64,000 nt of DNA from Morchella semilibera (Eukaryota; Ascomycota; Pezizomycetes; Pezizales; Morchellaceae): NCBI GenBank assembly GCA_009192285.1, contig CM018604.1:3578580-3642579 (forward strand), given 5' to 3'. The translations under genes were made by a program, and so were the position numbers. Of this stretch, positions 1 through 60,312 are shown one piece after another. How positions within the stretch are numbered: the first letter of the stretch is position 1; every line of letters starts with the position of its first letter. The notes below the pieces were generated by a model. It searched no databases. It saw nothing but the letters and a program-made list of their open reading frames with translations, and was not told the origin of the DNA.

Positions 1-1
1 A

Positions 2-500
2 TATGAGGTTGTTTGTGTTCCAGGAGCTAAAGTCATGTTTCTAACAAATGGTTTAATATCGCTCGGTATATCTAATGGGACATGTGGTATTATTGTATCT
101 TTACGGGAAGGTGGTCTACCAAATGTTGCATTTCCAACATATGAGGGTATTAGAGTAAGCTTATCCATCCGATAATTATATATAATCCTAACAAATACAG
201 ATTGTTGAAGTTTCAAAGGATACAATACATTTTCGAAGTCACGGAATCCGTTATTCCCGTACACAACTTCCTATTCAAAACGCATTTGCCTTAACAGTTC
301 ATAAAACACAGGGCTTATCGTTGAATAAAATATGTATAAGTTTTGATGATTCCATGTTTTTTGTTGGGCAAGCATATACAGCTCTGAGTCGTGCAAAAAA
401 ACTATGCGATGTAGAGATAAGTACTTTTCATATTGCTGCAGTTAAAGTTGATCAGGAGGCGGTACGAGAGTATCAACGATTGGAAATGATTGCTGTTTGA
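2..500 (+). CDS. PIF1-like helicase, C-terminal end (5' truncated by the window)
   Basis: This is the 3' end of a superfamily-1 helicase gene whose start lies outside the window. Two exons join cleanly: the reading frame up to 154, a 46-nt GT..AG intron at 155-200 (GTAAGC donor, CTAAC branch site near 187, ACAG acceptor), then 201-500 to TGA. Exon 2 shows the late PIF1/RecD-like motifs: FALTVHKTQGLSL (motif V region) and GQAYTALSRAK (motif VI, with the arginine). Enzymes of this family unwind DNA with ATP. In fungi, many such copies are host PIF1 paralogs or the helicase half of Helitron Rep/Hel proteins. No Rep domain can be seen because the gene is cut off, so host and transposon origins cannot be told apart here. 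The upstream boundary of the reading frame is only the window edge. Downstream is AT-rich repeat, with no clear Helitron 3' hairpin. Confidence 0.8.
155..200 (+). other. 46-nt spliceosomal intron in the helicase gene
   Basis: Donor GTAAGC, branch-site-like CTAAC and acceptor ACAG. Removing it joins the two helicase frames in phase 0 and gives an uninterrupted conserved C-terminus. Confidence 0.75.
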
Positions 501-1125
501 ACAAACATTGTTAGTATATTATTTGTTATGTATATTTGTATAATAATTGTATGAAGCGCTCGGTAACTTTGATTTAAGTTTTTTGAAAACTATACAATTA
601 ATACCAATAGGCATAAATAATCTACCTTGCCTATTCTAATAACTTCAGTGAATATTGATAGGTATTGGTATTGCTAGAATAATTAAGAATGACGGGTGTA
701 CATATAATACTGTATGTGTTCTTATAACTTCAATAGATACGGGTAAATTCCAGTAATAGTACAAAAATTACTACTGATAGGCATACATATGATACTCCGC
801 CTATTCTCCTGGCTTCAGTGTATACGGGTAAGTATTAGTCTTACTATACCGGTAAACGAGAATACAATAATGCGCATAATAGTATATTGTATCGTAGAAT
901 ATAACATTGATGTAGTTAGTAAATGCTTCAATAAATATAAAAATTTACAATTAAAGATAAAAGAACCTTGACTAGTAAGAATAAATATAGATAGTGAAAA
1001 CTAACCTAGACAAATACTGCGTAGTTGTAGTAGCTATAGATAATATCATGAAATAGTATCTTGCGTTGCCCGTTAGAGTACTAAGGGTATATTAGTTACT
1101 TTTATCATATATAATATCTTATTTA
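501..1125. repeat. AT-rich gene-free stretch with diverged repeats of about 90 bp
   Basis: No gene is supported. A segment around 605-690, containing a 'gcctattctaataacttcag' type core, recurs near 720-745 and 785-830 as 'gcctattctcctggcttcag', each time followed by GATA/GGTA-rich sequence. These look like old tandem copies. A 60-aa frame at 789-971 lies inside them and has no recognisable content. Confidence 0.4.
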
Positions 1126-2740
1126 AATAAAAAGAGATAAGTAGAAATAAATAGGAATAAGTGCTATCAAGTAGAAATAAGTACGAATAAGTGCTACTAA
1201 GTAAGAAAAAGTACGGATAAGTGCTAGCAAGTAAGAATAAATACGGATAAATACCAGAAAGTACCATTAAGTATATATAAGTACTGGTAGATGAGAATAG
1301 TCATCAACCAAACTGAAAAATATAGACAAATATATTACCTCCGTTAGGATAGTATATGCATATTTTATCACCCCATAATCAATAATATATTATATTAAGT
1401 AGGAAAAGTAACTCAGTATTTGGCAATAAGCAGCAATATACGGGAATAAGTGGAAGTAAGTACCAGCAAGTAAGAATAAGAAGGAGTAAATAGAAATAGA
1501 TACAAAGAAGTGAAATAAATAAGAATAATTATATAATAATAACTATAAATAGAAACACAGGTTAGTTTCAGTAGCAACACATATTATAATACATGTCAGG
1601 TAAGAAAGTGCCAGAATATATGAAAAAAATAACCGGTAAGTAGGAAGAAGTAGCAATAAATACCAAGAAGTAAGGAATAAATGAGGATAACAGGGACAAA
1701 TACGGGACAAATAATGAAAAGCAAGAATATACTATATACCCAATAACTATAAATAGAAACACGGGATAAGATTTTTCAAGAGCTTACATATTACATGTAT
1801 AATAATAAACTGTACGCACTAACGGGAGAAAAAAATGCCTCATATATAAACAGTCGGGAAAAAGTGGGAAAAGGTGACAGTAAGTGCCGGCAAGTAAAAG
1901 TAGGCATGAATAAGCGTGGACAGCTACGGAATAATGTCTTATAAGTACATGCACTATAATATATCCAAAACCCCGCTAAGTGAAAAATATGCCTCAATAT
2001 ATGGAAATAATGGTGGATAAGTAAAAATAAATAGCAGTAAGTATCAGCAAGTAGCAATAAGTGGGAATCACCTCCAAAATGGAAATAAGCGAAAGAGAAT
2101 TACAAATAATATACGGGACAATGTTTGTACTTACCTGTTAGGGTAGAACATACATATAAGCCACTTAGATAATATATAACATATCACTTTAAAGAGAAAG
2201 AAGCAAAAAAAAAAAACCTCAACATGTGAAAATAAGTACAAATAAGCAAGGATAAGCGGCAGCAAGTGCCAGCAAGTATGAATACGTGGCAACAACTAGA
2301 AATAAGTATAGACAAATAAAATCGAGTAAGAAAATCTATATGCCGAAGAAGTATGGAAAAGTAGAAATAAGTATAGATAAGCAGGTCAATTACAAACAAT
2401 TGCTACTATAAATAATCGGAATTGCTTAACACTACCCATTGAGTAGTACAAGTCTGTTAATCATTTATGCATAATATTTTACGAAAAACTTTCAACAGAT
2501 AAGGATAAGCAGAAATAAGCAGGAATATGTAATCAAAAGTGCCGATAAATATAAATAAGTACGGATAAGCGCTAATAGGCGTCATAAGTCTGATATTCCC
2601 TGCATGCTAGCCCAACAAATACGCAGAATAGATAGCGCCCCATATGACAAAGTGGGAGTAAATAAGCAAGGATAACAGTAATAAGTGACGATAAATTAGA
2701 AGAAGTAAAAATAAGTATAGATTAGTGGTAATAAGTTGCA
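1126..2740. repeat. Degenerate 30-bp minisatellite built on an AAGTA/AATAAGTA core
   Basis: About 1.6 kb of strongly A-rich sequence made of variants of 'aataagtgctatcaagtaga' followed by 'aataagtacg'. The period is clearest at 1140-1270. On the minus strand the 30-bp unit reads as a 10-residue repeat (STYSYLFLLD, STYPYFFLLS and similar) over 1073-1267. Weaker echoes of the same peptide occur around 1791-2057, 2184-2399 and 2607-2888. These frames are by-products of the repeat period, interrupted every 60-90 codons, so I do not call them genes. Confidence 0.65.
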
Positions 2741-3182
2741 GCAAGTCTCGGCATTTAACAATTATTATACATTTCACATAGATGCACCAAACATCAACGG
2801 ATTTAGTTAATAATTTCATTGATATTATTACTTGAGATTTTATAATATTCTTGATGATATGTATATATTTATATATAATTCTTTGCAATCGTTATTCTGT
2901 TGTCCTTCATACCTCAAATCATTTTCGAACTAAAGTAAAAGCTATCATATAAACTCCAAAGGCATGGTTTGTACCCAATCATTCCTTGTCAATAATTTAA
3001 GCGACTTATCTTTCTACAGAATAATTCAATGCCCGAGCAAATCGTTTCTGATAAAAACAATCAACAACGGACCCAAGGAGATAATATCAATCTCAATCGT
3101 AATAAATAGGATACTTTGAGATTTTTCCCCAAAACCCATACTTACGTATCTAGATCCCTTTATCGTACCATATAGCTCAACA
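2741..3182. other. AT-rich intergenic stretch, probable promoter of the next gene
   Basis: No open frame or repeat is seen here. It is the upstream region of the gene starting at 3183; no clear TATA box could be fixed. Confidence 0.3.
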
Positions 3183-4841
3183 ATGTCAATGCAATCAAGA
3201 GTTGCTGAAACTCTACTACCGGATAATCAAAGCCAAGAAGATACGCAAATCATTCCACCTACTATTCTTAATGACGATGCAACAATTCCAGATACTCAAA
3301 TCCCCCGTGAACCTCAGCCTCCTCAACTACCAATTCTTTCGTTTTCAGATGCTGGCCAATGGAGTGTTGGATCACGTATTAATACACGAAGAAGATTGCT
3401 AGGATCTATTCCCGAACATACTAGAGTGGAGAATACGATTGTCGGAAGAGCATTTACAATACCATTACATAGCGTTGAGGTATTACCAAATACTTACATA
3501 TTTGAATACTTTCTCACATGCAATTAGGAAGAAACTCGTCACGCAATGATCCTTGGAGACAGGGGTGATGCCAGCAGGCAACATCCACGTCGTACTTCCG
3601 ATGATATTAATGCATGGCTCCTACAAGCACAAGCAGATGCTACGAACTCTTCTTCATCTATTTCTGCACCCGTATTTCCAGAATCTGTTACAGGCAGTAG
3701 CGAAATAACTACCATGAGCCAACTTGAAAGACCTTCGTACCGCTTAAAAGATCAAGCACCAGAAATCCAAACAATCTTGAAGATCGCAAATGATGGAGTT
3801 GATGCATATACATTCCTTATGGAACCATTTAGTCTTCCAGATCCGTTGAATCTTGCATTACAAAAAAATATGGCAGGAATCTGCAACCAAAGCCAAAATG
3901 GATCCCCCGATCCTAAGTAACACCTACCTCAAGATTGTAGGTTATAAATTCCATTACTTGAATAAATGGTTATTAATTTTACAAGATGAAAGACTTTCAT
4001 GTTTATGCGAAATCTAGATTACTCAATCGAATGAAGTCAAAACTGGAAAGATCACTATACGGATTCAGTGAACTATCAACCACAGAGAAAAAAACTGAAC
4101 GTGCAGTATATCTTTTGTATAAAGATAGATTCCTATGTCAACCAAAGCATTACGAGGTAATCAGATCTCTTTATAAAAATTAGCAAAAAAACTAATAATT
4201 ATCTCATATAGGATATTAAATTCTATTTTTTAGCTCCCGAATTGATTGAATTAATATACCATATATATTACCATGATACCACCGGACGAGTTCGAAAAGA
4301 TGATATATTTCTTGAACAAATAAATCATAAATTTATTTGTTTAGTTTCGACTGCCATATGGTATAATTTACGTCGAATATCATTAGGAAATCCAACGAAA
4401 GCAAAACAATTGGGGCATTTTGGGTACAAAAACAAAGATGTTTTAGGTAAGCTTGGTATCGAATTTAGCTTTTTCAAGTACTAAAATAGAAATATTTCTT
4501 AGCTACGTATACACGACTAAAAAATACTTGGGTGGATCGAAGGCCATCAGTTCAGGAGCATCTATTGAGACTTATCAAAGATGAATTACGACAAATGGTA
4601 AAATCTTATAATTATTTTTTTATACTATGAATCTTAATATAGATGAGACTCGCAGATCGAAGAAAATTCAACAAATGATATCTCAACAAAAATTGAAGGA
4701 CATCAAGATGATGACGATGATTTAGAAAGAGAGCTAAATCTCCGAAGGAAAAGAGTAAGGCCAGATGATCGGGATGAGATACAGCCTAATGAACCCAGTA
4801 TTACCCCACCCCCATATCCATCGGGTCAAGGTACACCTTAA
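3183..4841 (+). CDS. Six-exon protein of unknown function, possibly DUF6532-like
   Basis: A spliced gene: exons 3183-3479, 3528-3916, 4018(or about 3986)-4156, 4212-4446, 4503-4597 and 4656-4841 (TAA). Introns at 3480-3527, 4157-4211, 4447-4502 and 4598-4655 have GT..AG ends and keep the frame. The second intron is uncertain: ending it at 4017 keeps the frame (446 aa in total), whereas the more natural acceptor at 3985 would shift it. The middle (LLNRMKSKLERSLYGF, then APELIELIYHIYYHD and FICLVSTAIWYNLRRISLG) has the rhythm of DUF6532, a domain of unknown function found in repeat-associated fungal proteins. That match is from memory and weak. The N-terminus is S/T/P/Q-rich and the C-terminus acidic then basic (DDDDDLERE, LRRKR). 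I see no catalytic motif. It lies between the helicase end and the Tet-like gene. Confidence 0.5.
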
Positions 4842-5198
4842 AATGTACGTATTGAAATATCTGTATTGATCATATCAATATTACGATCATGAATATTAGA
4901 AGCTAATATCTCTATTACTTTTAGAGCGATCAGAAGAATTGTGACGGTAACTTTTCATTCCTATATTTGTTTTTGAAAAAGAAATATTTTTGCTATAGGT
5001 TGTATTTAAATTATGTTATTTTTTTTCTTGGATTAATCAATATATATATATGTCTACTCAATAGATTTGCGATTATGAATCTTCGAATCTAGCCTAGATC
5101 GGGAATCCGATCAATGCGATAATTTAATTTAAATCCTATCTTATACAATCTTTCCATTTAAAATACATGCTGAACTACAAAGCAGATCGATATTTCCG
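4842..5198. other. AT-rich intergenic region between convergent genes
   Basis: This is the shared 3' region of the gene ending at 4841 (+) and the Tet-like gene ending near 5199 (-). It contains runs of T and TATATA but no gene. Confidence 0.5.
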
Positions 5199-7299
5199 TT
5201 ACGAAGTTCCGGTAATCCTTTCTAACAACTCCTTCAATCTAACTACATTATCTTTAACATTTGCTACCCCTATTTGAATAGCATTTTGTACTCTTATATT
5301 TAGCTGTTTATTCACTTGACATGTAGTTGCATATCTTGTAAATCCCGATCCGAAAACCGCCCGTTGCGGTACCGTGATCATCCTCCGGACCACACCAAAC
5401 AATCTCCGTAATTCCATCGATCGTTGCGAAATCAATTAGCGTTTTATAGATAGTACAGTAGAAGAAGTGTCCATGGGAATTGTAGCCATCAGAGAAGCGA
5501 ACAATCGAACCGTCCGATATCCGAATAGGTGCCCATATTCCGGATGTATATTTAGAGACATCGTTGTCTCGGTGCGATTTATTCCGAAATCCACCATAGG
5601 TATAAGCAACTTGTGGTGTAAAAAGAGTCTCATTCTTTAAGAATATAGCCGACTCCGTTCCGTAATCGATGCCGAGAAGTGGTAGCTTTAGTTCTCGGAC
5701 TTGCTGTTGTCTTTGCCGAAAGAATGCCGGTGCCATATCGAGAAAGCTTCTACCGAGATTGCGATGAAATCGTAGCGCTTGCGAGAAATGTTCAGATAGT
5801 GTATCCGGACATATGTTTTTATTCATTGCGTATGTACCGAAATCCCAACCCGATTCCGTTCCGGCGCGATATCCTATAGATTTCATGACACCACCAGTCT
5901 GGGCATGATTGCATTTAATTTCTGAGTGAAATTTTTGATCTTTTTGAACATAATTGAAGTTAAATTGTAGTTCCGATAAGCGTTCCGGTGCGAGATCTTT
6001 AAAGAGAGTAATTTTGTAGATTATTCGAACTTCTCTGGAAGCCGAATCGATAATGTATACCGTCTTCGATTGGTCTCCGATAATTCGTTTAAATTTGCGA
6101 TCATTCCAGATAGTATCATTATATGTCCATTCCTTCCCAAACATTTCCGTAGCGATCCTTTCGTCCCGTTTACGATGCATGAGAAATACCGATTCCGATT
6201 CAACATCTAAGAAGAGGGGTATTAGTAGAGTTGATAATATCAATATAGAATCTAATTACCTTCTGGTTTCTTATCAATGAAATCCAGAGCTGAGTTCCGT
6301 TCGATATCGATCTTTAGCTTGCGATTAGATTTGCGTTTGTTGCGTTTTGCGAGTTTACGATTTTGACGTTGGGTATTGCGATCCAGTAGTTGTTTGTTTT
6401 GATTTCGACGTATTGCAAAGTGACGATTCGATGCGATATGATCCTCTCCGCGTTCAGCGACACGCTTACTAGCATCATCGAGGCGACCGAGAGCGATGTG
6501 ATCCTCTCCGCGTTCAGCGACACGCTTACTAGCATCATCAGCAAGACTTCATTTGTCTCCTAATGTCTCCTGAGCCTCAGGAGACTCAAAAAATATCCGG
6601 GGGTCTCAGGAGACTCTCAGGAGACCCGGGAGACTGTTGGGAGACTCCAGTCACAAGTTGAGTTTGCTGATGATCATCGAGGCGACCGAGAGCGATGTGA
6701 TCCTCTCCGCGTTCAGCGACACGCTTACTAGCATCATCGAGGCGACCGAGAGCGATGTGATCCTCTCCGCGTTCAGCGACACGCTTACTAGCATCATCGA
6801 GGCGACCGAAGGCGATAGAGTTCTCTCCGCGTTCAGCGACACGCTTACTAGCATCATCGAGGCGACCGAGAGCGATGTGATCCTCTCCGCATTCAGCGAC
6901 ACGCTTACTAGCATCATCGAGGCGACCGAAGGCGATAGAGTTCTCTCCGCGTTCAGCGACACGCTTACTAGCATCATCGAGGCGACCGAAGGCGATGTGA
7001 TCCTCTCCGCGTTCAGCGACACGCTTACTAGCATCATCGAGCGACCGAAGGCGATGTCTCTCCGCGCAGCGACTGCTTACTCTCTCGGGCGCGAGGGATG
7101 TATCCTCTCCGCGTTCAGCGACACGATTACTAGCATCATCGAGGCGACCGAAGGCGATAGAGTTCTCTCCGCGTTCAGCGACACGCTTACTAGCATCATC
7201 GAGGCGACCGAAGGCGATGTGATCCTCTCCGCGTTCAGCGACACGCTTACTAGCATCATCGAGGCGACCGAGTGTGTTGCGAGATTTGCGATAATCCAT
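5199..7299 (-). CDS. Tet/JBP-like 2-oxoglutarate Fe(II) dioxygenase with repeat-containing N-terminus
   Basis: Starts at ATG 7299. The first ~250 residues are a 20-residue tandem repeat (core GRLDDASKRVAERGEDHIA) encoded by a 60-bp minisatellite. Then comes a very basic stretch (KLAKRNKRKSNRKLK, possible nuclear signal), a 53-nt intron (6259-6207, phase 1) and the catalytic part. The catalytic part shows FRNKSHRDND (HxD iron ligands, bases 5561-5575), GIWAPIRISDGSI, TEIVWCGPEDDHGT (distal His codon 5374-5376) and candidate 2-oxoglutarate-binding Arg residues just after. This order matches Tet-like/JBP-type dioxygenases, some of which oxidise 5-methylcytosine or thymine in DNA; the substrate here is unknown. 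Two oddities: a fold-back insertion at about 6534-6678 breaks the frame unless an intron is removed (GT..AG 6634-6547 would restore it, giving about 616 aa). In addition, the C-terminus after GGF appears frameshifted: one frame stops at 5308, while the other, running to 5199, looks like the natural tail. It could be recently inactivated. Confidence 0.72.
6207..6259 (-). other. 53-nt intron in the Tet-like gene
   Basis: Minus-strand donor GTAATT and acceptor CTTAG. It joins KKPE to DVESES in phase 1 and brings the basic region into frame with the dioxygenase domain. Confidence 0.7.
6425..7285. repeat. Coding 60-bp minisatellite, about 12 units
   Basis: Units of exactly 60 bp around 'gcgttcagcgacacgcttac'. 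Two units lie left of the insertion (to about 6539) and about ten lie right of it (6673-7285). Variants differ mainly in the segment that encodes HIAL, NSIAF or HIAF. One unit near 7041-7110 is scrambled by small indels that still keep the minus-strand frame. The high identity between units suggests recent expansion or homogenisation. Confidence 0.9.
6534..6678. mobile_element. Small fold-back/MITE-like insertion inside a minisatellite unit
   Basis: About 139 nt interrupt one 60-bp unit. The ends are inverted (ATCATCAGCAA at 6534 against TTGCTGATGAT ending at 6674). The inside carries repeated GTCTCCTGAG / CTCAGGAGAC palindromes, and ATCATC occurs on both sides as a likely target duplication. 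In the Tet-like gene's frame it brings a stop and a +1 shift, but GT and AG dinucleotides inside it (6634..6547, 88 nt) would allow in-frame removal. Confidence 0.6.
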
Positions 7300-7404
7300 A
7301 CAGAATATTTAAGATATGGTATGAATATTGGGGAATGTTACTGCTATATATAGAAAATTGATATGATTGATTTGTTAAGTCCTATTATAATATCAGATGC
7401 CTAT
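7300..7404. other. Upstream region of the Tet-like gene
   Basis: AT-rich, directly 5' of the minus-strand ATG at 7299. It contains TATATA (about 7345-7352) at a promoter-like distance; nothing more can be said. Confidence 0.35.
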
Positions 7405-8830
7405 TCGTAGTGGCTTATATCTTAGTCAGTTTTTATGCTAACGTAACGATTAGTAGTTCAGGACAAAGCTACAAATGCGTACTTCTATTTACCAATTTCA
7501 ACAATATGAATTGATACTTATGCATTGTGCTAATCAGGAAATAGTAAGGCTCAGCGGCATGGAGTTTTATAGTACTGGATTTTTACCATTTCCTGAATAG
7601 CGTCATGTACAGGCGTCACACATAATCGTTGTAGTGTGGGGGTGAAGTATTATCTTTTGGTTTCATTTTGAGCTTAAAATTGCCAGATTAGCACAAAAAC
7701 TGACTGAGCTATGAGGCTTTTACTATAGTGGCGGGATTTTACTATTTCCTGAATGGTTACATTCACAAGCGTCCCACGCAACCGTTATGGTATGGGGGTG
7801 AAGCAGTACTTCTTAGCTTTATTCTGCATCAAAAATCCCCATGTTAGCACAAAAACTGACTGAGTTATTAAGCTTTGACTAATAGATTCCTATAGTGCCG
7901 GGTTTCTTACCAATTCCTTACTAGCGTCATGCACAGGCATCACACCCAATCGTTGACATATGGAAATAAAGGTACTGCTTTTTAGCTTCATTTTGAGCCA
8001 AAAATTACCAGGTTAGCATAAAAACTGACTGAGCTATGCAGCCTCAAATATAGTAGCGGATTTTATTCTTTCTTGAATAACGCCATGTACAGGCGTCACA
8101 CCTAGTCGTTGACACCTGGAAATAAAAGTACTGCTTTTTAGCTTCATTTTGAGCCAAAAATGATCAGGTTAGCACAAAAACTGAACCCTTGATTATAGTG
8201 GCGGGTTTTTTACTCTTTCCTTAATAGCGCCATATACAGGCACCACACCCAATCGTTGACACCTGGAAATAAAAGTAATGCTTTTTAGCTTCATTTTGAG
8301 CCAGGAATCACCAGGTTAGCACAAAAACTGACTGGGTTATGAACCCTTGATTATAGTGGCGGGTTTTTTACTCTTTCCTTAATAGCGCCATGTACAGGCA
8401 CCACACCCAATCGTTGACACCTGGAAATAAAAGTACTGCTTTTTAGCTTCATTTTGAGCCAAGAATCGCCAGGTTAGCACAAAAACTGACTGGGTTATGA
8501 ACCTTGATTATAGTGGCGGGTTTTTTACTCTTTCCTTAATAGCGCCATGTACAGGCACCACACCCAATCGTTGACACCTGGAAATAAAAGTACTGCTTTT
8601 TAGCTTCATTTTGAGCCAGGAATCGCCAGGTTAGCACAAAAACTGACTGAGCTATGAACCCTTGACTATAGTGGCGGGTTTTTACTCTTTCCTGTACAGC
8701 GCTATGTACAGGCGTCACACTCAATCGTTGACACATGGAAATGAAAGCACTACTTTTTAGCTTCATTCTGAGCCATAAATCGCCAGGTTAGCGCAAAAAC
8801 TGACGGAGATATGTACCCTTGACTAATGCA
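7405..8830. repeat. 157-bp tandem array with an inverted first unit
   Basis: A diverged unit in inverted orientation (about 7405-7570) is followed by about eight direct units. Their common core (gttgacacctggaaataaaa type) starts at 7628, 7786, 7952, 8108, 8255, 8413, 8570 and 8727, so the spacing is 147-166 bp, mostly 157. Divergence decreases towards the right: the units at 8255-8727 are almost identical. Each unit holds a 'ttagcacaaaaactgactg' segment and a 'gtggcgggttttttac' segment. No coding function is seen. Confidence 0.8.
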
Positions 8831-9000
8831 ATGGACTCTGCATTAGTCAAGGCTTCATATCTCCGTCAGTTTTTGCGCTAACCTGGCGATTTATGGCTCA
8901 GAATGAAGCTAAAAAGTAGTGCTTTCATTTCCATATGTCAACGATTGAGTGTGACGCCTGTACATGGCGCTGTACAGGAAAGAGTAAAAACCCGGCGCTA
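8671..9000. repeat. Near-perfect palindrome with arms of about 160 bp
   Basis: The last direct unit of the array (8671-8830) is followed, after an 8-bp spacer (8831-8838), by its reverse complement (8839-9000). The centre reads GACTAATGCA-ATGGACTC-TGCATTAGTC. Only a few mismatches were seen by eye. Such a structure can form a large hairpin or cruciform. Confidence 0.85.
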
Positions 9001-9049
9001 TATAATATGGCTTATGCCTTCATATTTCCTCCTTTTGACAGCAACAACA

Positions 9050-9703
9050 ATGTCTACCTCCTCTACCTCCTTTACCTCCTCTACCCCCTCCTGGCCTGTC
9101 CGTAATGGAGTGCCAGTTTGGGACAAATTTATCAATAAACATCGAGCTGATTGGCTTGATCGTGCCTTTCGTTTACCCAGCCTCCATAACTCTATACAAA
9201 TCAATACTCCTATGTGTACAACATGTATTTCTGCTCTACAAGATCGTGGTCGCGAGTTCTGTGTGCAGAAACTTGATCCTACCAACCGAGTCATCTCCTC
9301 CTGTAACAACTGTTTACGTAATGGTCGCAAATGCTCTTTAAACCCCCGAGCCCTTAAGCGATCAGTCATTAGTCTCCTCTCCGATGAAGAGGATACTAGC
9401 AGCGATAGTCATTCTCCACCTCAACAGAACATCAAACGATTCCTACAAGATAAAGAAATCAAGAAAGAGGAAGTAAATAAAGAAGGAGGGACCGAGGGAA
9501 AGAGAAAAAAACTTCTAAAGGAAATGAAATGCCATCTGGAGAGGAAAATGAGTTTCATCGATCAGATTGAAATAGCTAAGTATGAACAGGAAACTATGCG
9601 GGAGGAATACAAAAAACAAATTACCAGTTGTAAAAATCAGATTTCTAGAATAGATATGCTTGTATTGGAGCTTAGTGAAGAGCTACTTAAGTTGGATCTA
9701 TAA
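9050..9703 (+). CDS. Six-cysteine, coiled-coil protein of unknown function
   Basis: 217 aa from ATG 9050. The frame is open further upstream to 8903, but that part is palindrome sequence, so the start just after it is preferred. Residues 1-15 are Ser/Thr-rich. Cys56, 59, 71, 85, 88 and 95 are spaced C-x2-C-x11-C-x13-C-x2-C-x6-C, ending SCNNCLRNGRKCSL. The second half resembles a Gal4-type Zn2Cys6 cluster, but the loops are longer, so zinc binding is an inference. Residues ~110-160 are acidic/Ser then Lys/Glu-rich. The last ~60 residues are a likely coiled coil (KEMKCHLERKMSFIDQIEI and on). It could be a DNA-binding protein or a protein carried by the neighbouring repeat. No family can be named with certainty. 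Confidence 0.6.
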   Translation: MSTSSTSFTSSTPSWPVRNGVPVWDKFINKHRADWLDRAFRLPSLHNSIQINTPMCTTCISALQDRGREFCVQKLDPTNRVISSCNNCLRNGRKCSLNPRALKRSVISLLSDEEDTSSDSHSPPQQNIKRFLQDKEIKKEEVNKEGGTEGKRKKLLKEMKCHLERKMSFIDQIEIAKYEQETMREEYKKQITSCKNQISRIDMLVLELSEELLKLDL

Positions 9704-9957
9704 TAGTTTGGTCATGTAATTAAATTAACAGTTCGCTCCTGGACATGTCAGCATCGGCTCCCAGCACCTGCGCGTCAACCCTAGTTTATAATTACATTAC
9801 TTGTAGAAAAGGTCAATGATTTGTATAGCATACATGTATGTTTATCGCATTTATTCGTCTCTGACACAGGACATTTAATTCTCCTTCTAGACCGAACAAA
9901 GTTCAAGTTCCATTAGGATTTCCACACTATCATGATCTAGCTAGCTGCCACAACCTA
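9704..9957. other. Intergenic, no feature seen
   Basis: 3' flank of the six-cysteine gene. No repeat or gene is supported. Confidence 0.4.
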
Positions 9958-23458: not shown

Positions 23459-26400
23459 CTAAGTCCTCTTAGGCTTACGTGGGTATCGTTCATGAAAGTC
23501 TTTGACTAACTCAGGAGAGTTGTCTAGATCGCCGTAGGGTTGCCAGGATGGCTCATCGTAGCCAGTATATCGAACGAGATACTCCAATCTTCTGCGTCGT
23601 TTTCGAGAATCCAGAATAGCATCCACTTCCCATTCTTGTTCGCCTTCGATCTCAACGGGGGGCGGAGGCATTTGTATTTGACCTGGAACAGGATCGTTGG
23701 CGGCGGGCGAGAGCAGCGAGACGTGAAACACTGGATGAACTTTCATCAAGGCAGGTAGCATAAGTTCGTAGGCATAGGGGCTGACTACGCGAGAGATCGG
23801 GTATGGTCCGACTTGTTTCCAGTCTAACTTCTTCGACGGGCGCTTGGTCAATAGATTCCTAGTGGACAACCATACTTTATCCCCGATAGCATAACGTGGT
23901 GCTGGCGTACGACTTGCGTTGGCTGACTCTTCCTGTATCCGCTGGGCTCTAAACATTTCCGCTCGAAGGAAGTCAAACACTTCTGACATATCTCTTGCCA
24001 TAGTGTTAGCCTGGTCCTCGTTCGTAGTAATGCCGTGCCGTGGGGGGCCAAAATTCATGCGTGGATGACGACCATAGTTGGCTTCGAAGAGAGAGAGCTT
24101 GGTTGACTCGGAGACGTGATTATTGGTGGCAAACTCTGCCATGGGTAGATAAGTCGCCCAGTTATCCTGTTGATAGTCCACATAGCTTCGAAGATATTGT
24201 TCCATGATGGCATTAATTCTTTCTGTCTGGCCATCCGTTTGAGGGTGAAAGGCAGTAGAATACCGAGGAGAAATCTCAAGACGCTCGCATAGTGATTTCC
24301 AGAAATCCGAGGTAAACTGAGTGCCGCGATCGGAAACTATCTTTTCTGGGAGACCGTGTAATTTCCAAACGTTCTCCAAATACATTCGGGCGACGTCTCT
24401 GGCTCCTGATTCTTCAGTACATGGAATAAAGTGTCTCATTTTTGTAAGGCGGTCGACGACGACGAGAATGGCATTATAATTATTACTAAGAGGTAAGCCG
24501 GTAACGAAGTCCATCGAAACGTCTGTCCACGGTGCCTTGGGAACTAAAAGAGGATGAAGGACTCCTTGAGGGGCATTGCGATTTGCTTTGCTTCGGCGGC
24601 AAATGTGACAGTTCATGACGTAGCGATCTGTATATTTCCGCATGTTTGGCCAATAGTATTCTCGACTGAGTAACTCGAGGGTCTTTGCTCTACCTGGGTG
24701 TCCTGCTGAGGGTTTGTCATGGTACTCCTGAAGAAGTCTGAGCTGTAGTTCCTCTTGTTCCGGTACAAAGAGCTTGCGTCGATAGAGAAGGAATCCGTCT
24801 TCGTTTTCTGCGCATTCGGCAAGCGAAATTTGTTTTGATTGTTTTGTGCCATCTTTTAGCATCGTAAGTACCTTATTTGGGAAACTATCCTCTTGGTAAG
24901 CCTTTATAAATAATTCTTGGACAGTAGGCGTTCCTTCAGCGGGTTCATTTGCCAAAGAACCCGCCAACAAACTTAGCTTCTTATCCAAATTTTTCCTTTT
25001 TAGCACCGTCTGATACTGATACGCAAGGCGTTCATCCCTCTCCTTAGGGAGATCCCCTGATCGCCTAGTAAGTGCATCCGGTTTACCTCCTTGCTTTCCC
25101 GGGCGGAATTGTATAACAAAATCAAAGCGAGAAAGAAACTCCGACCAACGAGTTTGCCGACGATTTAATAACTTGGTTGACATAAAATATTCAAGGTTCC
25201 TGTGATCTGTTAGGACCTTGATAGGGTACGAGGCTGTTTCCAAAAAATAGCGCCATTCTTCAAATCCCCGAATAATTGCCAAAAGTTCTTTATCGTATAT
25301 CTCATAATTACACTCTGCCGGCGTGTGTTTCTTTGAAAAGAAGGCGACCGGGTGAAGTATTCCCTCGTCGTCTCGCTGGGACATAATAGCGGCAGAAACA
25401 TAATCAGAGGCATCTGTTTCCACAATAATTTCTCGGTCTGGGTCGAAGTGTCTAAGAATAGGGGCGGTAATAAATGCAAGCTTGAGGTCCTGAAAAGCCT
25501 TCTCCGTCTTATCTGTCCATTTAAACACCACACCCGTCTTGGTTAGAGCAGTTAGCGGAGATACTACCCTCGAGTATGCATAAATAAATCGCCGATAAAA
25601 GTTTGCAAAGCCGAGAAATTCCTGTACATCTTTGAGGCAAGTTGGAGTTTCCCAATTCCTAATAGTTGCTACTTTTGCCTCGTCCATCTTAATTCCTTCG
25701 GGTGTGAAAACGAAGCGAAGATACATTGTTTCCTTCACATGCCATTCACATTTCTCGGGCTTAGGGTGGACCTGATCTTCATCGAGTATCCGAAGGACCT
25801 TGTCGACATGTTCTTTATGTTCTTCGAGGGTAGTTGAATAAATAAGAATATCATCCAAATAGGCAGTAGCGAAGTGATCAAGGTGAGGACATAGCATATC
25901 GTTGACCCAATGTTGAAATGCGGCAGGGGCGTTAGTCAATCCAAAGGGCATAACAGTATATTCGAAATGGCCGTAACGAGTACGAAAGGCCGTTTTCCAT
26001 TCGTCTCCCTCCCTAATCTGTAATTGATGATAGCCATTGCGAAGATCCAATTTAGTAAAATACTTGGCCGAGGAGATACCCATAAAGGTTTCGGGTGTCA
26101 ACGGTAGGGGATGTCGATTCTTCACCGTTACTGCGTTTAATTTTCTATAGTCCACGCAGAGTCGGAGGGAACCATCAGTCTTCTTAACAAACAATACCGG
26201 AGAGCCTGCGGGAGAGGTGCTATGTCGAATCCGTCCATTGGATAAATATTCCGCTAAATAATCTCTGAGTTCCTGAAGTTCTAACCGGGTCATCCCATAC
26301 ATGGGTCCGAATGGTACAGTCTTTCCTTCCTGTATATCAATAGACAGATCGTATTCGGTGCAATGAGGAGGGAGTCTGTCGGCATTTGGCTCACTGAGGA

Positions 26401-27022
26401 GATGCAGATACTGATGATGTTCAATAGGTACGAGTACTCGAGGATCCTTGGGTGTTTGGGCCAATAGGTCGTCGAGAGCTTTTAGGGTGGTAGAGTATAA
26501 TTTCATTCCTTTTCTTTTCTTATTAATGAGTCTGTGGAATGCGTAGGAGGTAATAACTGAGATATTGGTTGTTGTTTTGGAGGGTTCAATAGCGATACCC
26601 TTAGCAATAACTTTGGTTTGATTAGGGGAGCAGTATTGAACACAGTCAGGAGAATCAAAATGAATTTCATTAACTGCAGGAAGAATAGTGGTTGCATGAC
26701 GGCGCATCCAGGGAAGACCCATCACGATTGGATAGTGTCCTAGTTGAGTAACGAAGAAGGGAGCGTCTTCTCTGTGGCCGTTAATGTCGAGACTGAGGAT
26801 AGCTTTATGGGTGACCTTTCCTGATTCGATAGGTCTACCGTCTATTACGTCTATATGTCGAGGGAGAAAGAGGGGGGTGGTCTTAAGTTTGTGGTGGCAT
26901 ACGAAGTCCTTATCTATGAACGCGTATCCTGGGGCGCCAGTATCAATGAGAGCATATGATGGGATAGAGGAATCTTTATTTTGAGAAATAGAACAAGTTA
27001 CGACTAATTGATTCCCATCCAT
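23459..27022 (-). CDS. pol: Gypsy pol polyprotein: PR-RT-RH-INT-chromodomain, 1187 aa
   Basis: An uninterrupted frame. Protease: LIDTGAPGYAF with the DTG at residue 27. Reverse transcriptase: the catalytic YLDDILIYS near residue 388, preceded by PFGLTNAPAAFQ. RNase H: VETDASDYVSAAI and ELLAIIRGFEEW. Integrase: an HHCC zinc site (HPGR...H; CHICRRSK) near 780-810, and the DDE acidic residues in SMDFVTGLP, DRGTQFTSDFW and HPQTDGQTERINAIMEQ. The last ~60 residues (EWEVDAILDSRKRRRRLEYL onward) form a chromodomain, which in this clade steers integration to marked chromatin. All key residues are present, so the protein could be active. The start ATG lies 75 nt after the gag stop; how pol is expressed is not evident. 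Confidence 0.93.
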   Translation of the reverse strand: MDGNQLVVTCSISQNKDSSIPSYALIDTGAPGYAFIDKDFVCHHKLKTTPLFLPRHIDVIDGRPIESGKVTHKAILSLDINGHREDAPFFVTQLGHYPIVMGLPWMRRHATTILPAVNEIHFDSPDCVQYCSPNQTKVIAKGIAIEPSKTTTNISVITSYAFHRLINKKRKGMKLYSTTLKALDDLLAQTPKDPRVLVPIEHHQYLHLLSEPNADRLPPHCTEYDLSIDIQEGKTVPFGPMYGMTRLELQELRDYLAEYLSNGRIRHSTSPAGSPVLFVKKTDGSLRLCVDYRKLNAVTVKNRHPLPLTPETFMGISSAKYFTKLDLRNGYHQLQIREGDEWKTAFRTRYGHFEYTVMPFGLTNAPAAFQHWVNDMLCPHLDHFATAYLDDILIYSTTLEEHKEHVDKVLRILDEDQVHPKPEKCEWHVKETMYLRFVFTPEGIKMDEAKVATIRNWETPTCLKDVQEFLGFANFYRRFIYAYSRVVSPLTALTKTGVVFKWTDKTEKAFQDLKLAFITAPILRHFDPDREIIVETDASDYVSAAIMSQRDDEGILHPVAFFSKKHTPAECNYEIYDKELLAIIRGFEEWRYFLETASYPIKVLTDHRNLEYFMSTKLLNRRQTRWSEFLSRFDFVIQFRPGKQGGKPDALTRRSGDLPKERDERLAYQYQTVLKRKNLDKKLSLLAGSLANEPAEGTPTVQELFIKAYQEDSFPNKVLTMLKDGTKQSKQISLAECAENEDGFLLYRRKLFVPEQEELQLRLLQEYHDKPSAGHPGRAKTLELLSREYYWPNMRKYTDRYVMNCHICRRSKANRNAPQGVLHPLLVPKAPWTDVSMDFVTGLPLSNNYNAILVVVDRLTKMRHFIPCTEESGARDVARMYLENVWKLHGLPEKIVSDRGTQFTSDFWKSLCERLEISPRYSTAFHPQTDGQTERINAIMEQYLRSYVDYQQDNWATYLPMAEFATNNHVSESTKLSLFEANYGRHPRMNFGPPRHGITTNEDQANTMARDMSEVFDFLRAEMFRAQRIQEESANASRTPAPRYAIGDKVWLSTRNLLTKRPSKKLDWKQVGPYPISRVVSPYAYELMLPALMKVHPVFHVSLLSPAANDPVPGQIQMPPPPVEIEGEQEWEVDAILDSRKRRRRLEYLVRYTGYDEPSWQPYGDLDNSPELVKDFHERYPRKPKRT

Positions 27023-27096
27023 ATCCTTCTCCGAAACCGAAAACCCAGAAACCGAAATCCTAGAAAAGTTCTTAAACCGTCCCTGGAATGAGCCAC

Positions 27097-28546
27097 TCAG
27101 TCCAGGTAAAAATCTTTTAACGCCTCATTACCGGAGGCTTCTTCCTTCTCTTCTTCTTCTCTAATATCTACCCTAGCTCCCCTCATCCTGGGGGCTGGGT
27201 TCCTGGGAGCCGGCGCCTGCGGGCATTCCCTTACAAGGTGTCCTCCTTGTCCACAATAAAAACACCTATTCTCTACGCGGCGGGCCTCTCTTTCCTGAGG
27301 GTCCGGGCGGCCACGACCTGCTGACAAATCCATAGGGGCCACTCCTCCGGGCGTATGGGACGGGTGGGCAGCTGGGGGAGCAGGGCGAGCGGGGGCTTGA
27401 TAGCGAGGAGCCGGGGAAGGCGAAGCTAGATATCGAGGAGTAGGGGCAGCTGGAGCCTGATAACGGGGTGCGGGGGAAGCGGGAGCAACATAGCGAGGTG
27501 CCGGGCGAGCTTAGAGTGCGGGGGCCTGGTAGCGAGGACGGTAGCGGGCAGTGATCATCTGCTGTTTGTTGTCCAAGCGTTGGAGAATGGTGGCTAGTTC
27601 AATAACGGTGGCGGGGGTCTCTTCGTGGACTATAAGCTTGGTGAGTTCTTCGCTCAGACCTTCCATAAGGGCCTCCACATTGGCCGTTTCTCCCATACCA
27701 GCTTCCGCGGCGTAGCGTTGAAACTCGGCGAAGTATTCCGAGAAGGGGCGGTTGAGTTGTCTGATTCTCCTAAGAGCGCGACAGGCAGTACCTTCCTGGT
27801 CTGGGTCCCCAAAGGCTGTATCCAGAATTTCGAAGAACCTTCCCATTGATGGGAGGTTAATGCTGGTGGTGGTAATATAGGGCATGAACTGATCGGCAGC
27901 GGGGCCCTCCAAGCGAGAAATGGCATAGGTTAACTGGTTCTGCAGAGTGGGATACCTATCGGCATTGCCCAACAACTTGAGTTTCAACATGTTTTTAAAT
28001 TGAGGAAGTCCCTTCCTATTGCCGCGATATTTCTCTGGGTCCGGAATCTTCTCTGACCTTTCAGGTCTTGGTTCTTAGGTAAGGGTAATGCCTTCTAAGA
28101 GGCGGTTGCGACGTCGAGAAGGGGGGTGGCGGAATAGGGTCTGCTGCCGGAGGCGGAGGAGGAGGCGGGAGTGCGATCTGGGCGGCGAGTGCGGCTTCGG
28201 CGGATTGCGTTGCTTGGTTTGCGGTTCTTACTTGGGTCTGGAGGGTGGTGACCTGAGCTTCGAGGACTGTTATCTGTCCCTCTAACTCTTGATTCTCCCT
28301 TCCCAACTTTGTAAGTTTCTTGGTCCATTCTTTTCGAGCTTCATCCCCATCCTCTATTTCTTCCTGCCAATTGATAATAAGTTGTTTGACGGCTTGTTGA
28401 GCGCGGAACATTAGATCATGGATTTTCTTAGCTTCCTCACTGGCGTCGTCAGCGACAGTAGGGTGTGCGGCTACGAATGTATCAAGATCCCTCTGGAGGA
28501 TCTCGTAGAGTCCTTCTGACTCTTCCATAGGGTCTGCTTGCGACAT
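27097..28546 (-). pseudogene. gag: Gypsy gag, broken by a frameshift and an in-frame stop
   Basis: Three pieces are seen. 28546-28061 (161 aa) is acidic with a coiled coil and a Pro-rich end. 27990-27511 (159 aa) is capsid-like, with RRIRQLNRPFSEYFAEFQRY. 27342-27097 (81 aa) carries a zinc knuckle CFYCGQGGHLVREC (C-x2-C-x4-H-x4-C). The first and second pieces are in different frames around 28060-28085. The second and third are in the same frame, separated by a TAA at 27511-27513 within RYQAPA-type Pro-rich repeats. As it stands no full Gag could be made, so this copy would need Gag from another element. Confidence 0.85.
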
Positions 28547-58299: not shown

Positions 58300-58385
58300 G
58301 CCCATCTACTTGCAGGTTCTAACCTCTTCTCCTCCCAGTCATTACCAAAATTAACGTCCCACACCAGCACAAAAGCATAAGGTAC

Positions 58386-58453
58386 CACCACCACCACCAC
58401 CACCACCACCACCACCACCACCACCACCACCACTACTACTACTACTACTATTA
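58386..58453. repeat. (CCA)n / (CTA)n microsatellite in the 5' leader
   Basis: About 16 CCA units followed by about 7 CTA units, ending 15 nt before the start codon. It probably lies in the transcribed leader. Confidence 0.85.
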
Positions 58454-58467
58454 TACATAATATTAAG

Positions 58468-60312
58468 ATGGGCGGATCACGCTCCGAGGACCGGTTCTGC
58501 CTGCGCGTCGAGTTAGGATGTAGTCCATGCAATGAGTCTCCAAAACCCCCTTCAAAACCTCACCGCCATGAGCGTAGAGATCAGGATGGTAAAGAGCGAT
58601 CTCAGAGAAGCCGCTCAGGAGGCCCTTCCAGAAGTAGGCCCCAGTCACCAACTATTGCTATTCGCCAGGCAACGGTGGTGCCAATGTCTGTGGAGAGACA
58701 CCGATCCAGACACAGATCTGGATCAGCTGCGAGGGCTCGCTCACCGACCATCCAAGTGGTATATCCACGGGTAGGAGAGATGACGACTTCGAACCCCAGG
58801 CGCTCCACATCAGCGCGTCGCCGCAACACTGCACCGGAACATCCAGAGGAGGCAACAGCTCCACACCATAGGCGCAGCAGCTCAAGAAGTCGTCGTGAAC
58901 CCCCGGGGCAGTTCCATGGATGGTCCCCGGAGCGCAAAAAGGACTATTCATACTATGCTGAGCCAATTGCAGCACCCCCACCACCTTCCTGGCCAGTACC
59001 AGAGCAGGATTATCATCCTACCCCGATGCTGCACCGGGCCCCCTCAACACCCCCCCCGCCGTCGCCCCATCGGCCCCGCACCCCAGATATACATACGTCC
59101 AGAACAGAGAGTCCACATACTGACGGCGCTGCCGATACTGGTAGCGGAGGTAGCCGTAGAGATCCAAGATCTTTTGCATCCCGTGCTGCAGCTGCGGAGA
59201 GGGCGGCCTCTGGCCGGGGAGGGAGCCACCAAAGGGACCACGACCGCCCTGCAACAGGAGAGAGCCACCGAAGGGACCATGACCGCCCTGCAACAGGAGA
59301 GAGCCACCGAAAGGACCACGACCGCCCTGCAACGGGAGAGAGCCACCGAAGGGATCACGACCGCCCTACAACGAGAGAGAGCCACCGAAGGGACCACGAC
59401 TACTCTGCAACGGGAGAGAGCCACCGAAGGGACCACGACCGCCCTGCAACGGGAGAGAGCCACCGAAGGGATCAAGACCGCCCTACAACGAGAGAGAGCC
59501 ACCGAAGGGACCACGACTACTCTGCAACGGGAGAGAGCCACCGAAGGGACCACGACTACCCTGCAACGGGAGAGAGCCACCGAAGGGACCACGACCGCCC
59601 TGCAACGGGAGAGAGCCACCGAAGGGACCACGACCGTCCTGAAACGGGAGATAGTGGCCGCAGGGATAGGCACCACAGATACGAGCATACACACGATCGC
59701 TATCCGGCAGAAAGGCCTGTGAATTCTGGTGCCCATGTAGAGACCTTCTATACTTCGACCGATGGGTACCCCTCCGGGGTGCAATACGCCAGCTATACAT
59801 TCCCACCGCCCCAGTCCTATGAAACTACTTACTACCAGGCCTATCAGGGAAAAACCCACCCATTCACAGCCGGCCCTGCCTACGAAGCAGCGCCGCCGCC
59901 GCCCCATCCGTATGCTGAGGGTTATTCTAGCGGTGGGAGCAACAACCACAGCCGCCGCCCATCCACCGCCCACGGGGGTTACTACTCCCGCCCAAGTAGT
60001 AGCTATAGAAGTGGCTACGAATTTCCGCCGGGACCCACTAGTGGCTCCTACCCAGGTTCAAATGGAGGGGCTTACCCAGGCCCAAGCGGTGCACACGAGC
60101 CCGAGACATTGCCGGAGGACTTGGGCCCATATTGGGCCGAGTTAGGGCTTCAACCAGGCGCTGATGATGCCGCAATTAGGTCGGCTTACAAGAAGCTTGC
60201 GCTCAAGTGTCATCCGGATAGGCTGGCCGGGATGGACGAGGGGGAAAAGAAAATATTGGAGCAGAAGTTTGTGAAGGTCAAGGAGGCGCATGATATCTTG
60301 TTGGAGAAGTAG
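58468..60312 (+). CDS. Large disordered protein with tandem repeats and a C-terminal J domain
   Basis: 614 aa without introns. Residues 1-245 are Arg/Ser/Pro-rich and disordered (RSGGPSRSRPQSP, SSSRSRREPPG). Residues ~250-397 are eleven tandem copies of a 13-residue unit (RRDHDRPATGESH and variants). Residues ~400-545 are Tyr/Pro/Gly/Ser-rich. The last ~67 residues (PYWAELGLQPGADDAAIRSA onward, with HPD in KCHPDRLAG) are a J domain with the catalytic HPD motif. J domains stimulate the ATPase of Hsp70; a C-terminal J domain behind a long disordered region is known in fungi, but the client is unknown. The Arg/Ser-rich N-terminus would fit a nuclear or RNA-linked role; that is inference. A TATA box and a microsatellite leader precede it. 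Confidence 0.85.
   Translation: MGGSRSEDRFCLRVELGCSPCNESPKPPSKPHRHERRDQDGKERSQRSRSGGPSRSRPQSPTIAIRQATVVPMSVERHRSRHRSGSAARARSPTIQVVYPRVGEMTTSNPRRSTSARRRNTAPEHPEEATAPHHRRSSSRSRREPPGQFHGWSPERKKDYSYYAEPIAAPPPPSWPVPEQDYHPTPMLHRAPSTPPPPSPHRPRTPDIHTSRTESPHTDGAADTGSGGSRRDPRSFASRAAAAERAASGRGGSHQRDHDRPATGESHRRDHDRPATGESHRKDHDRPATGESHRRDHDRPTTRESHRRDHDYSATGESHRRDHDRPATGESHRRDQDRPTTRESHRRDHDYSATGESHRRDHDYPATGESHRRDHDRPATGESHRRDHDRPETGDSGRRDRHHRYEHTHDRYPAERPVNSGAHVETFYTSTDGYPSGVQYASYTFPPPQSYETTYYQAYQGKTHPFTAGPAYEAAPPPPHPYAEGYSSGGSNNHSRRPSTAHGGYYSRPSSSYRSGYEFPPGPTSGSYPGSNGGAYPGPSGAHEPETLPEDLGPYWAELGLQPGADDAAIRSAYKKLALKCHPDRLAGMDEGEKKILEQKFVKVKEAHDILLEK
59211..59660 (+). repeat. Coding 39-bp minisatellite, 11 units
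   Basis: 39-bp units around 'gggagagagccaccgaaggg'. Units 4-5 and 7-8 share the same unusual pair (DRPTTRESHRRDHDYSATG and near-copy), which shows a block duplication inside the array. Confidence 0.9.

Follow-up and report, generated by a model that had tools for sequence, protein, structure and literature searches.

Kojima (2025, PMC12730594) described Helitrons bearing TET genes in five species, which belong to four families of Pezizales, Morchellaceae among them. In the part of that report used here, the Pezizales families are assigned to Helitron1, and the PE type of enzyme is defined by HxE in place of HxD. Tet dioxygenases are described there as recurring in fungal transposons, and an anti-silencing role is proposed for the transposon-borne TET/JBP genes of fungi, without experimental validation in that text. 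The same source describes KDZ transposons with TET/JBP genes, which are likewise DNA transposons with Tet-like cargo. The FoHeli Helitrons of Fusarium oxysporum are also fungal elements with non-canonical ends, as the portion of their description used here indicates (PMC5148889). Among the matches listed in our literature search (titles and beginnings of abstracts), no other paper on a Tet-like gene in a Helitron was found, and the search returned no papers on the Pfam family PF20515.

The object of this analysis was a window of 64,000 nucleotides from a morel (positions 3578580–3642579 of contig C2), and searches covered the genome of 56,756,124 bases in 23 contigs. Like the PE-type TET+ Helitrons (PMC12730594, as far as described in the part used), the morel locus is a Pezizomycetes Helitron carrying a Tet/JBP-like dioxygenase. 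The finding of a Helitron-borne Tet-like gene is well supported, and its kind has been known since late 2025; the morel family may already be among those of Kojima 2025. The enzyme type and the N-terminus look different from the published description: where the PE type has HxE, the morel enzyme has H-R-D in seven of the eight copies that reach the motif; in the eighth, a stop replaces the x residue. The original prediction, which described the block as ascomycete-looking, was right about the host.

The features of the Helitron part are collected in Table 1. A run of 1086 N ends one base before the window start. In BLAST comparisons, similarity to the window stopped at 9786–9797 in loci L025, L026, L027, L029, L030, L034, and L035 (a duplicate of L034). 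Locus L028 already lost similarity at 9394, and the remaining fetched loci were more broken than those with the common end.

Table 1. Coordinates of the Helitron part and its genes in the window
Feature	Positions	Strand	Remarks
Helitron 3′ part	1..9785	+	remainder left of the window, beyond the 1086-N run
C-terminal piece of Helitron PIF1-type helicase	192..500	+	
Cargo gene of several exons, weakly DUF6532-like	3183..4840	+	inferred exon structure and gene end
Tet-like 2OG-Fe(II) dioxygenase gene	5199..7299	-	start codon ATG at 7297–7299, gene running from 7299 to 5199; extent taken from the C11 copy
Exon 2 open frame with PF20515 domain, window copy	5308..6255	-	ORF and Pfam; exon 2 begins at 6206
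Probable intron, GT..AG	6207..6259	-	inferred; sequence read by eye
Exon 1, coding for the tandem array of 20-aa repeats (units of 60 bp; 11 matches to the core) and for the basic linker	6260..7299	-	
137-bp MITE-like insertion in the repeat array, CATCA..TGATG ends, AT on either side	6536..6672	.	
Repeats of ~157 bp, direct and inverted, between dioxygenase (-) and zinc-cluster-like ORF (+)	7400..9002		
Zinc-cluster-like ORF, CX2C..C..CX2CX6C	9050..9703	+	
Helitron 3′ end ...GCACCTGCGCGTCAACCCTAGT, then T	9720..9785	+	9/11 genome rows

The best copy of the element, with Rep, helicase, and cargo, is located on contig C11 (307176–321926). Its Rep ORF of 845 aa matched the profile Helitron_like_N (PF14214, 2.1e-12, 48.1 bits with a cut-off of 28.9) and is adjacent to an ORF for the PIF1 helicase (PF05970, 1e-30, 107.5 bits with a cut-off of 25.9). 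The C11 copy contains the stretches HTHSLLW and KYITKYVTK, which we take to be the HUH and Y2 motifs. The helicase piece in the window matched Herpes_Helicase (6.6e-6) and UvrD_C_2 (1.3e-4), both under the curated cut-offs, and its near-identical counterpart comes after the PIF1 ORF in C11. The gene travels with the element, whose best copy has both Rep and helicase. Carriage by a mobile unit, as proposed originally, is now accounted for by a Helitron with Rep, PIF1 helicase, and constant ends.

The 5′ end was matched from its first base in 12 of 13 rows, representing 10 distinct flanks when the duplicate contigs C21/C22 and the C7 tandem pair are each counted once. Nine of 11 rows share the 3′ end CCCTAGT|T, with eight distinct flanks. 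A HUH Rep with PIF1 and constant ends are traits of the Helitron superfamily, and no target duplications were seen in the flanks on inspection by eye. Assignment within the superfamily was less straightforward under the definitions of Helitron1 and Helitron2, which were taken from parts of PMC5148889 and PMC3627910. The 3′ end, CCCTAG|T, fits the CTRR-then-T of Helitron1. The 5′ end is TTAAAC or TAAAC and lacks the 5′-TC of Helitron1, and the last base of the 5′ flank (A in six, T in two, and G in two of the 10 distinct flanks) departs from its A-T insertion rule. Folding of the 3′ end in three copies gave z values of 1.41, -1.02, and 1.07, that is, no convincing hairpin. As to Helitron2, the 5′ 60 nt of two copies folded no better than shuffles (z -0.48 and 0.56), giving no 5′ hairpin, and no exact asymmetric terminal inverted repeats of 8–15 bp were found in C11. 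Between the first 40 nt and the last 150 nt of C11 there is no exact inverted 8-mer and a single 7-mer; the test used exact matches, so that imperfect repeats could remain. The Pezizales Helitrons of PMC12730594 are classed as Helitron1 in the part used here, whereas the morel element is without the 5′-TC. FoHelis have asymmetric terminal inverted repeats according to the portion of PMC5148889 used, unlike C11, which has no exact one of at least 8 bp. Two Helitron 5′ ends in tandem, starting at 101063 and 101177, were observed at C7:101063–101283, and some FoHelis are described there as having several 5′ ends as well. The sequence TGCG(C/T)GTC occurs near both ends of the C11 element in the same orientation and is perhaps a recognition site of Rep.

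Unlike the KDZ transposons, the morel element gave no KDZ match in the ten ORFs examined. A genome search with the KDZ transposase profile PF18758 gave two rows at a single place (C2:3104k), and an origin from or link to KDZ transposons was rejected on these two results.

The element carries two further candidate cargo genes. The DUF6532-like gene matched PF20149 below the cut-off (E 9.4e-4, 19.6 bits versus 24). The zinc-cluster-like ORF has a cysteine pattern that we take to be a zinc-cluster motif, and Pfam Zn_clus gave only E 3.1. An inverted copy of the ~157-bp repeat lies around 8830, and the array is flanked by divergent cargo genes; counts of one anchor motif in arrays of this type varied among copies from 0 to 11 over both strands.

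The exon 2 ORF of the window copy encodes 315 aa and matched PF20515 ("2OG-FeII_Oxy_6, Tet-like") with an E-value of 2.2e-36 and a score of 126.3 bits against a curated cut-off of 27, over 208 of the 211 profile positions. Genome-wide, this profile gave 12 rows at 10 loci, all 12 above the cut-off. The proposed membership in 2OG-FeII_Oxy_6 thus holds. The proposed membership in Tet_JBP does not: PF12851 gave no match for the window ORF at E <= 10 or for the C11 ORF at E <= 1, and was ruled out by these searches. Nor did searches of PDB with the dioxygenase protein, either singly or in a nine-row profile, find any Tet structure, while in a control search a Tet_JBP protein from the same genome found CcTet (7.7e-7) and Naegleria Tet. 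Those two proteins share with the morel Helitron enzyme the ligand order HxD...H and differ from it in matching PF12851. Comparing profiles with the Tet_JBP proteins that this genome encodes at five of the eight loci L001–L008 gave nothing, the profile being shallow. On these profile matches, the predicted dioxygenase is a member of the Pfam family named Tet-like and is not established as a Tet_JBP protein.

Relatives in protein databases numbered 11 in all, consisted only of fragments, and came from a single source. The searched viral contigs and prokaryotic genomes yielded no confirmed relative, the NCBIfam search gave no match, and PHROGs gave matches only at E >= 0.048. Two AlphaFold runs on seven-row alignments had mean pLDDT values of 34.7 and 32.7, reflecting too little alignment depth. 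Three of the relatives (P0005, P0006, and P0009) end after VAYTY(G/S). A break there points to an intron in their genes, one that would be without a counterpart in the morel copies.

Both iron-ligand motifs named in the original prediction were located in the window copy by hand counting: HxD, read there as SHRDND, is H228-R-D230 (codons 5566–5574), and the distal histidine of DDHGT is H294 (codon 5374–5376). Eleven sequences were surveyed on the C11 frame, of which three end short of the motifs. HxD, the distal His, and an Arg further on (in FTRYA) are present together in seven of the eight copies reaching them; the copy interrupted within HxD has FIRYA instead of FTRYA. The Arg occupies the position 13 residues after the distal His, in (F/Y)TRYA, in the C11, C4, and C21:2451k copies and in the outside relatives P0008 and P0010, the latter two keeping GGFG-G-(F/Y)TRYA. 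In the window, a one-base length difference makes the sequence diverge past the distal His, and the ORF ends with a stop at 5308–5310. The "nearby Arg" stood in part: copies do have an Arg after the distal His, whereas the one seen in the window sits past the length difference and may belong to an altered reading. The length difference may itself be an assembly or sequencing error, since indel-rich copies elsewhere in the genome resemble unpolished long-read sequence.

The tandem-repeat N-terminus and very basic linker, which the original prediction had not recognized from this family, were both found in exon 1, where the basic stretch comes after the 20-aa repeats; the two lie outside the PF20515 match. 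In Pfam, the repeat matched Microp_apicomplexa_20 at 27.3 bits (cut-off 27) and weaker models below their cut-offs, and we take these matches as repeat-driven. Core units were counted in 11 sources with a 30-base core allowing at most five errors. The window has 11 of them, followed by C2:2038k with seven, C19 with five, C6 with four, C4, C21:2451k, and C21:537k with three each, C11 with two, and C1 with one, and no units were found in L032 and L033. The start of exon 1 was recognizable in six of the 11 sources. From there the frame runs open as far as the intron in three of the six (C11, C21:2451k, and C21:537k) and hits an earlier stop in the window, C2:2038k, and C6. The early stop of the window copy is due to the 137-bp MITE-like insert, within which the frame from the ATG terminates. 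The ends of this insert agree with those of PlavakaB as given in the part of PMC12730594 used here. The same MITE-like repeat was also observed elsewhere in L027, L030, L031, L033, and L034. An intact dioxygenase in the window was ruled out by the insertion and the C-terminal difference, the latter possibly a sequencing error, and the window copy is probably a damaged member of its family.

Searching the genome with the dioxygenase protein gave 16 rows. Six loci have both element ends, Rep, and at least a dioxygenase remnant, with lengths of 14,751 bp (C11), 14,763 bp (C1), 15,933 bp (C6), 20,986 bp (C21, with a duplicate on C22), 21,791 bp including the gap (window locus), and ~27.8 kb (C7). 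Most dioxygenase copies are broken or fragmentary in the assembly: a 57-residue fragment remains at C21/C22, and the copies at C6, C1, and C7 are in pieces or contain stops. In the C11 and C4 copies, the exon 2 frame is complete at 351 aa. PF14214 gave 29 rows genome-wide, distant Helitrons included. When related Rep loci were defined by identity of at least 54%, dioxygenase sequence lay on the expected side of eight of 10; none was found next to Rep at C4:60k and C12/C13, and the same search revealed no close Rep beside the dioxygenase copies C4:31k, C21:2451k, and C19:2961k.

The state of the assembly affects how the copies are read. In the C11-anchored alignment, in-frame stops occur in L027, L030, L032, and L033. 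Relative to C11, L029 has 15 mismatches and 64 gap openings, L028 has 60 and 241, and L026 has 190 and six, so that the indel-rich copies resemble unpolished long-read sequence and many of their indels look like assembly errors. The arm left of the N run repeats window positions 1–4858 with 26 mismatches and 99 gap openings; two explanations fit, a redundant contig end and a second copy. The contig pairs C9/C10, C12/C13, and C21/C22 yielded the same matches at positions that were identical or nearly so, which suggests duplicated sequence in the assembly.

Both the dioxygenase and the zinc-cluster-like ORF are under purifying selection. With codons containing gaps or stops dropped, dN/dS of dioxygenase exon 2 was 0.25 for C11–C4, 0.31 for C11–C21:2451k, and 0.10 for C11–C2:1431k (dS 1.48), the highest value of any pair being 0.61; three close pairs had no synonymous change, and one of these three had no change at all. 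A binomial test against a neutral value of 0.76, the assumed share of non-synonymous sites, gave p values of 0.0014 (C11–C4) and 1e-15 (C11–C2:1431k) for pairs that are non-independent, with stops and inserted bases excluded. For the zinc-cluster-like ORF, dN/dS was 0.09 between the window and C4 and 0.05–0.47 over differing pairs. The first exon of the DUF6532-like gene was less clear (0.09–1.2 over differing pairs).

Stops in some copies prompted us to consider classic RIP, which was rejected as the C-to-T changes had no consistent CpA preference. For these counts and the binomial test, tandem-block columns were removed; from another count, L035 was dropped as a duplicate of L034. In the window copy, C-to-T change was slightly higher at CA (14/811) than in other contexts (0.010–0.012). 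At CpG it was ~1.5 to 1.7 times that of other contexts in L030 (CA 0.092, CC 0.096, CG 0.147, CT 0.096) and L032 (CA 0.106, CC 0.096, CG 0.159, CT 0.080) and was also raised in L034, but not in L026, L031, and L033; in L033 it peaked at CpT (11/44). The CpG observed/expected ratio was 1.00 in the C11 element versus 0.83 in the window from 10 to 64 kb. This is compatible with little lasting CpG methylation on the element, and normal CpG content may also mean just a young element. Three loci of the genome contain C5 DNA methylase genes, a duplicate contig being counted once.

The reading that we prefer, and consider reasonably probable, is that the window holds the 3′ portion of a Helitron of autonomous type with a Tet-like dioxygenase as long-term cargo, an enzyme that would oxidize 5-methylcytosine of the element and sustain its expression. 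The basic linker would allow the enzyme to enter the nucleus; host DNA methyltransferases would place 5-methylcytosine on the element, the dioxygenase would oxidize it there, and oxidation of the methyl marks would reduce silencing, keeping the element expressed. A change of the methyl marks that silence the element appears to be the most likely role. Such a transposon-carried DNA-demethylation enzyme would directly counter host silencing. That the cargo is under purifying selection provides a quantitative indication of an enzyme serving the element, and the idea is testable in an edible fungus that has copies with a full exon 2 frame and DNA methyltransferase genes.

The common evidence of the PF20515 family would equally suit an enzyme that puts a modified base in place or maintains it (5hmC or some other product), as CMD1 does, to mark or protect the element DNA instead of removing a mark that causes silencing. 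CMD1 makes 5gmC, and other activities of PU- and PE-type enzymes are possible according to the part of PMC12730594 used; we regard this reading as unlikely. A captured host dioxygenase acting on a non-DNA substrate, of some other use to element or host, would explain why similarity to solved Tet proteins was undetectable, and capture of a non-Tet enzyme is conceivable given that a Helitron of Aspergillus nidulans took up part of a gene for xanthine dioxygenase (PMC4289320, in the part used). The Tet-like name of PF20515 in Pfam, the basic linker adjoining the dioxygenase domain, and the recurrence of Tet dioxygenases in fungal transposons reported in PMC12730594 (part used) argue the other way, and make this origin rather unlikely.

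Damage to the gene could also mean that the window copy and most others are dead relics and that the gene has no present function. The MITE in exon 1 and the altered C-terminus of the window copy agree with this, as do the in-frame stops of the four loci listed above. We nevertheless find it quite unlikely in view of the full exon 2 frames of C11 and C4, the purifying selection on the dioxygenase, and the many indels that look like assembly errors, of which the low mismatch and high gap count of L029 is an example. That the locus is a chance repeat or a segmental duplication of a host gene and not Helitron cargo could be argued from the duplicated contig pairs; common ends in 10 distinct 5′ and eight distinct 3′ flanks are strongly contrary to it, leaving it extremely improbable.

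The gene could represent a further transposon Tet-like class (PF20515, HxD) in an ascomycete Helitron, distinct from PE, in which the variable 20-aa repeats and basic region target the enzyme to the repeat-rich divergent promoter of the element with the zinc-cluster-like protein as a partner. We put this forward as a doubtful proposal. The HxD/PF20515 type and the repeat N-terminus suggest repeated capture of Tet-like genes or their diversification beyond the three published types.

Some other observations were made in the genome and in the window. Loci L001, L003, and L005 (C7:461k, C21:913k, and C14:28k) share a second family of repeats, which includes a PF12851 Tet_JBP gene containing HxD and has stretches that are 82–98% identical between loci. 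In the window, a minus-strand ORF of 1221 aa at 23459–27124 looks by eye like a Gypsy-type retrotransposon polyprotein. The ORF at 58381–60312 contains 39-bp (13-aa) tandem repeats at 59217–59651 and, judged by eye, a J-domain-type HPD motif near its end.
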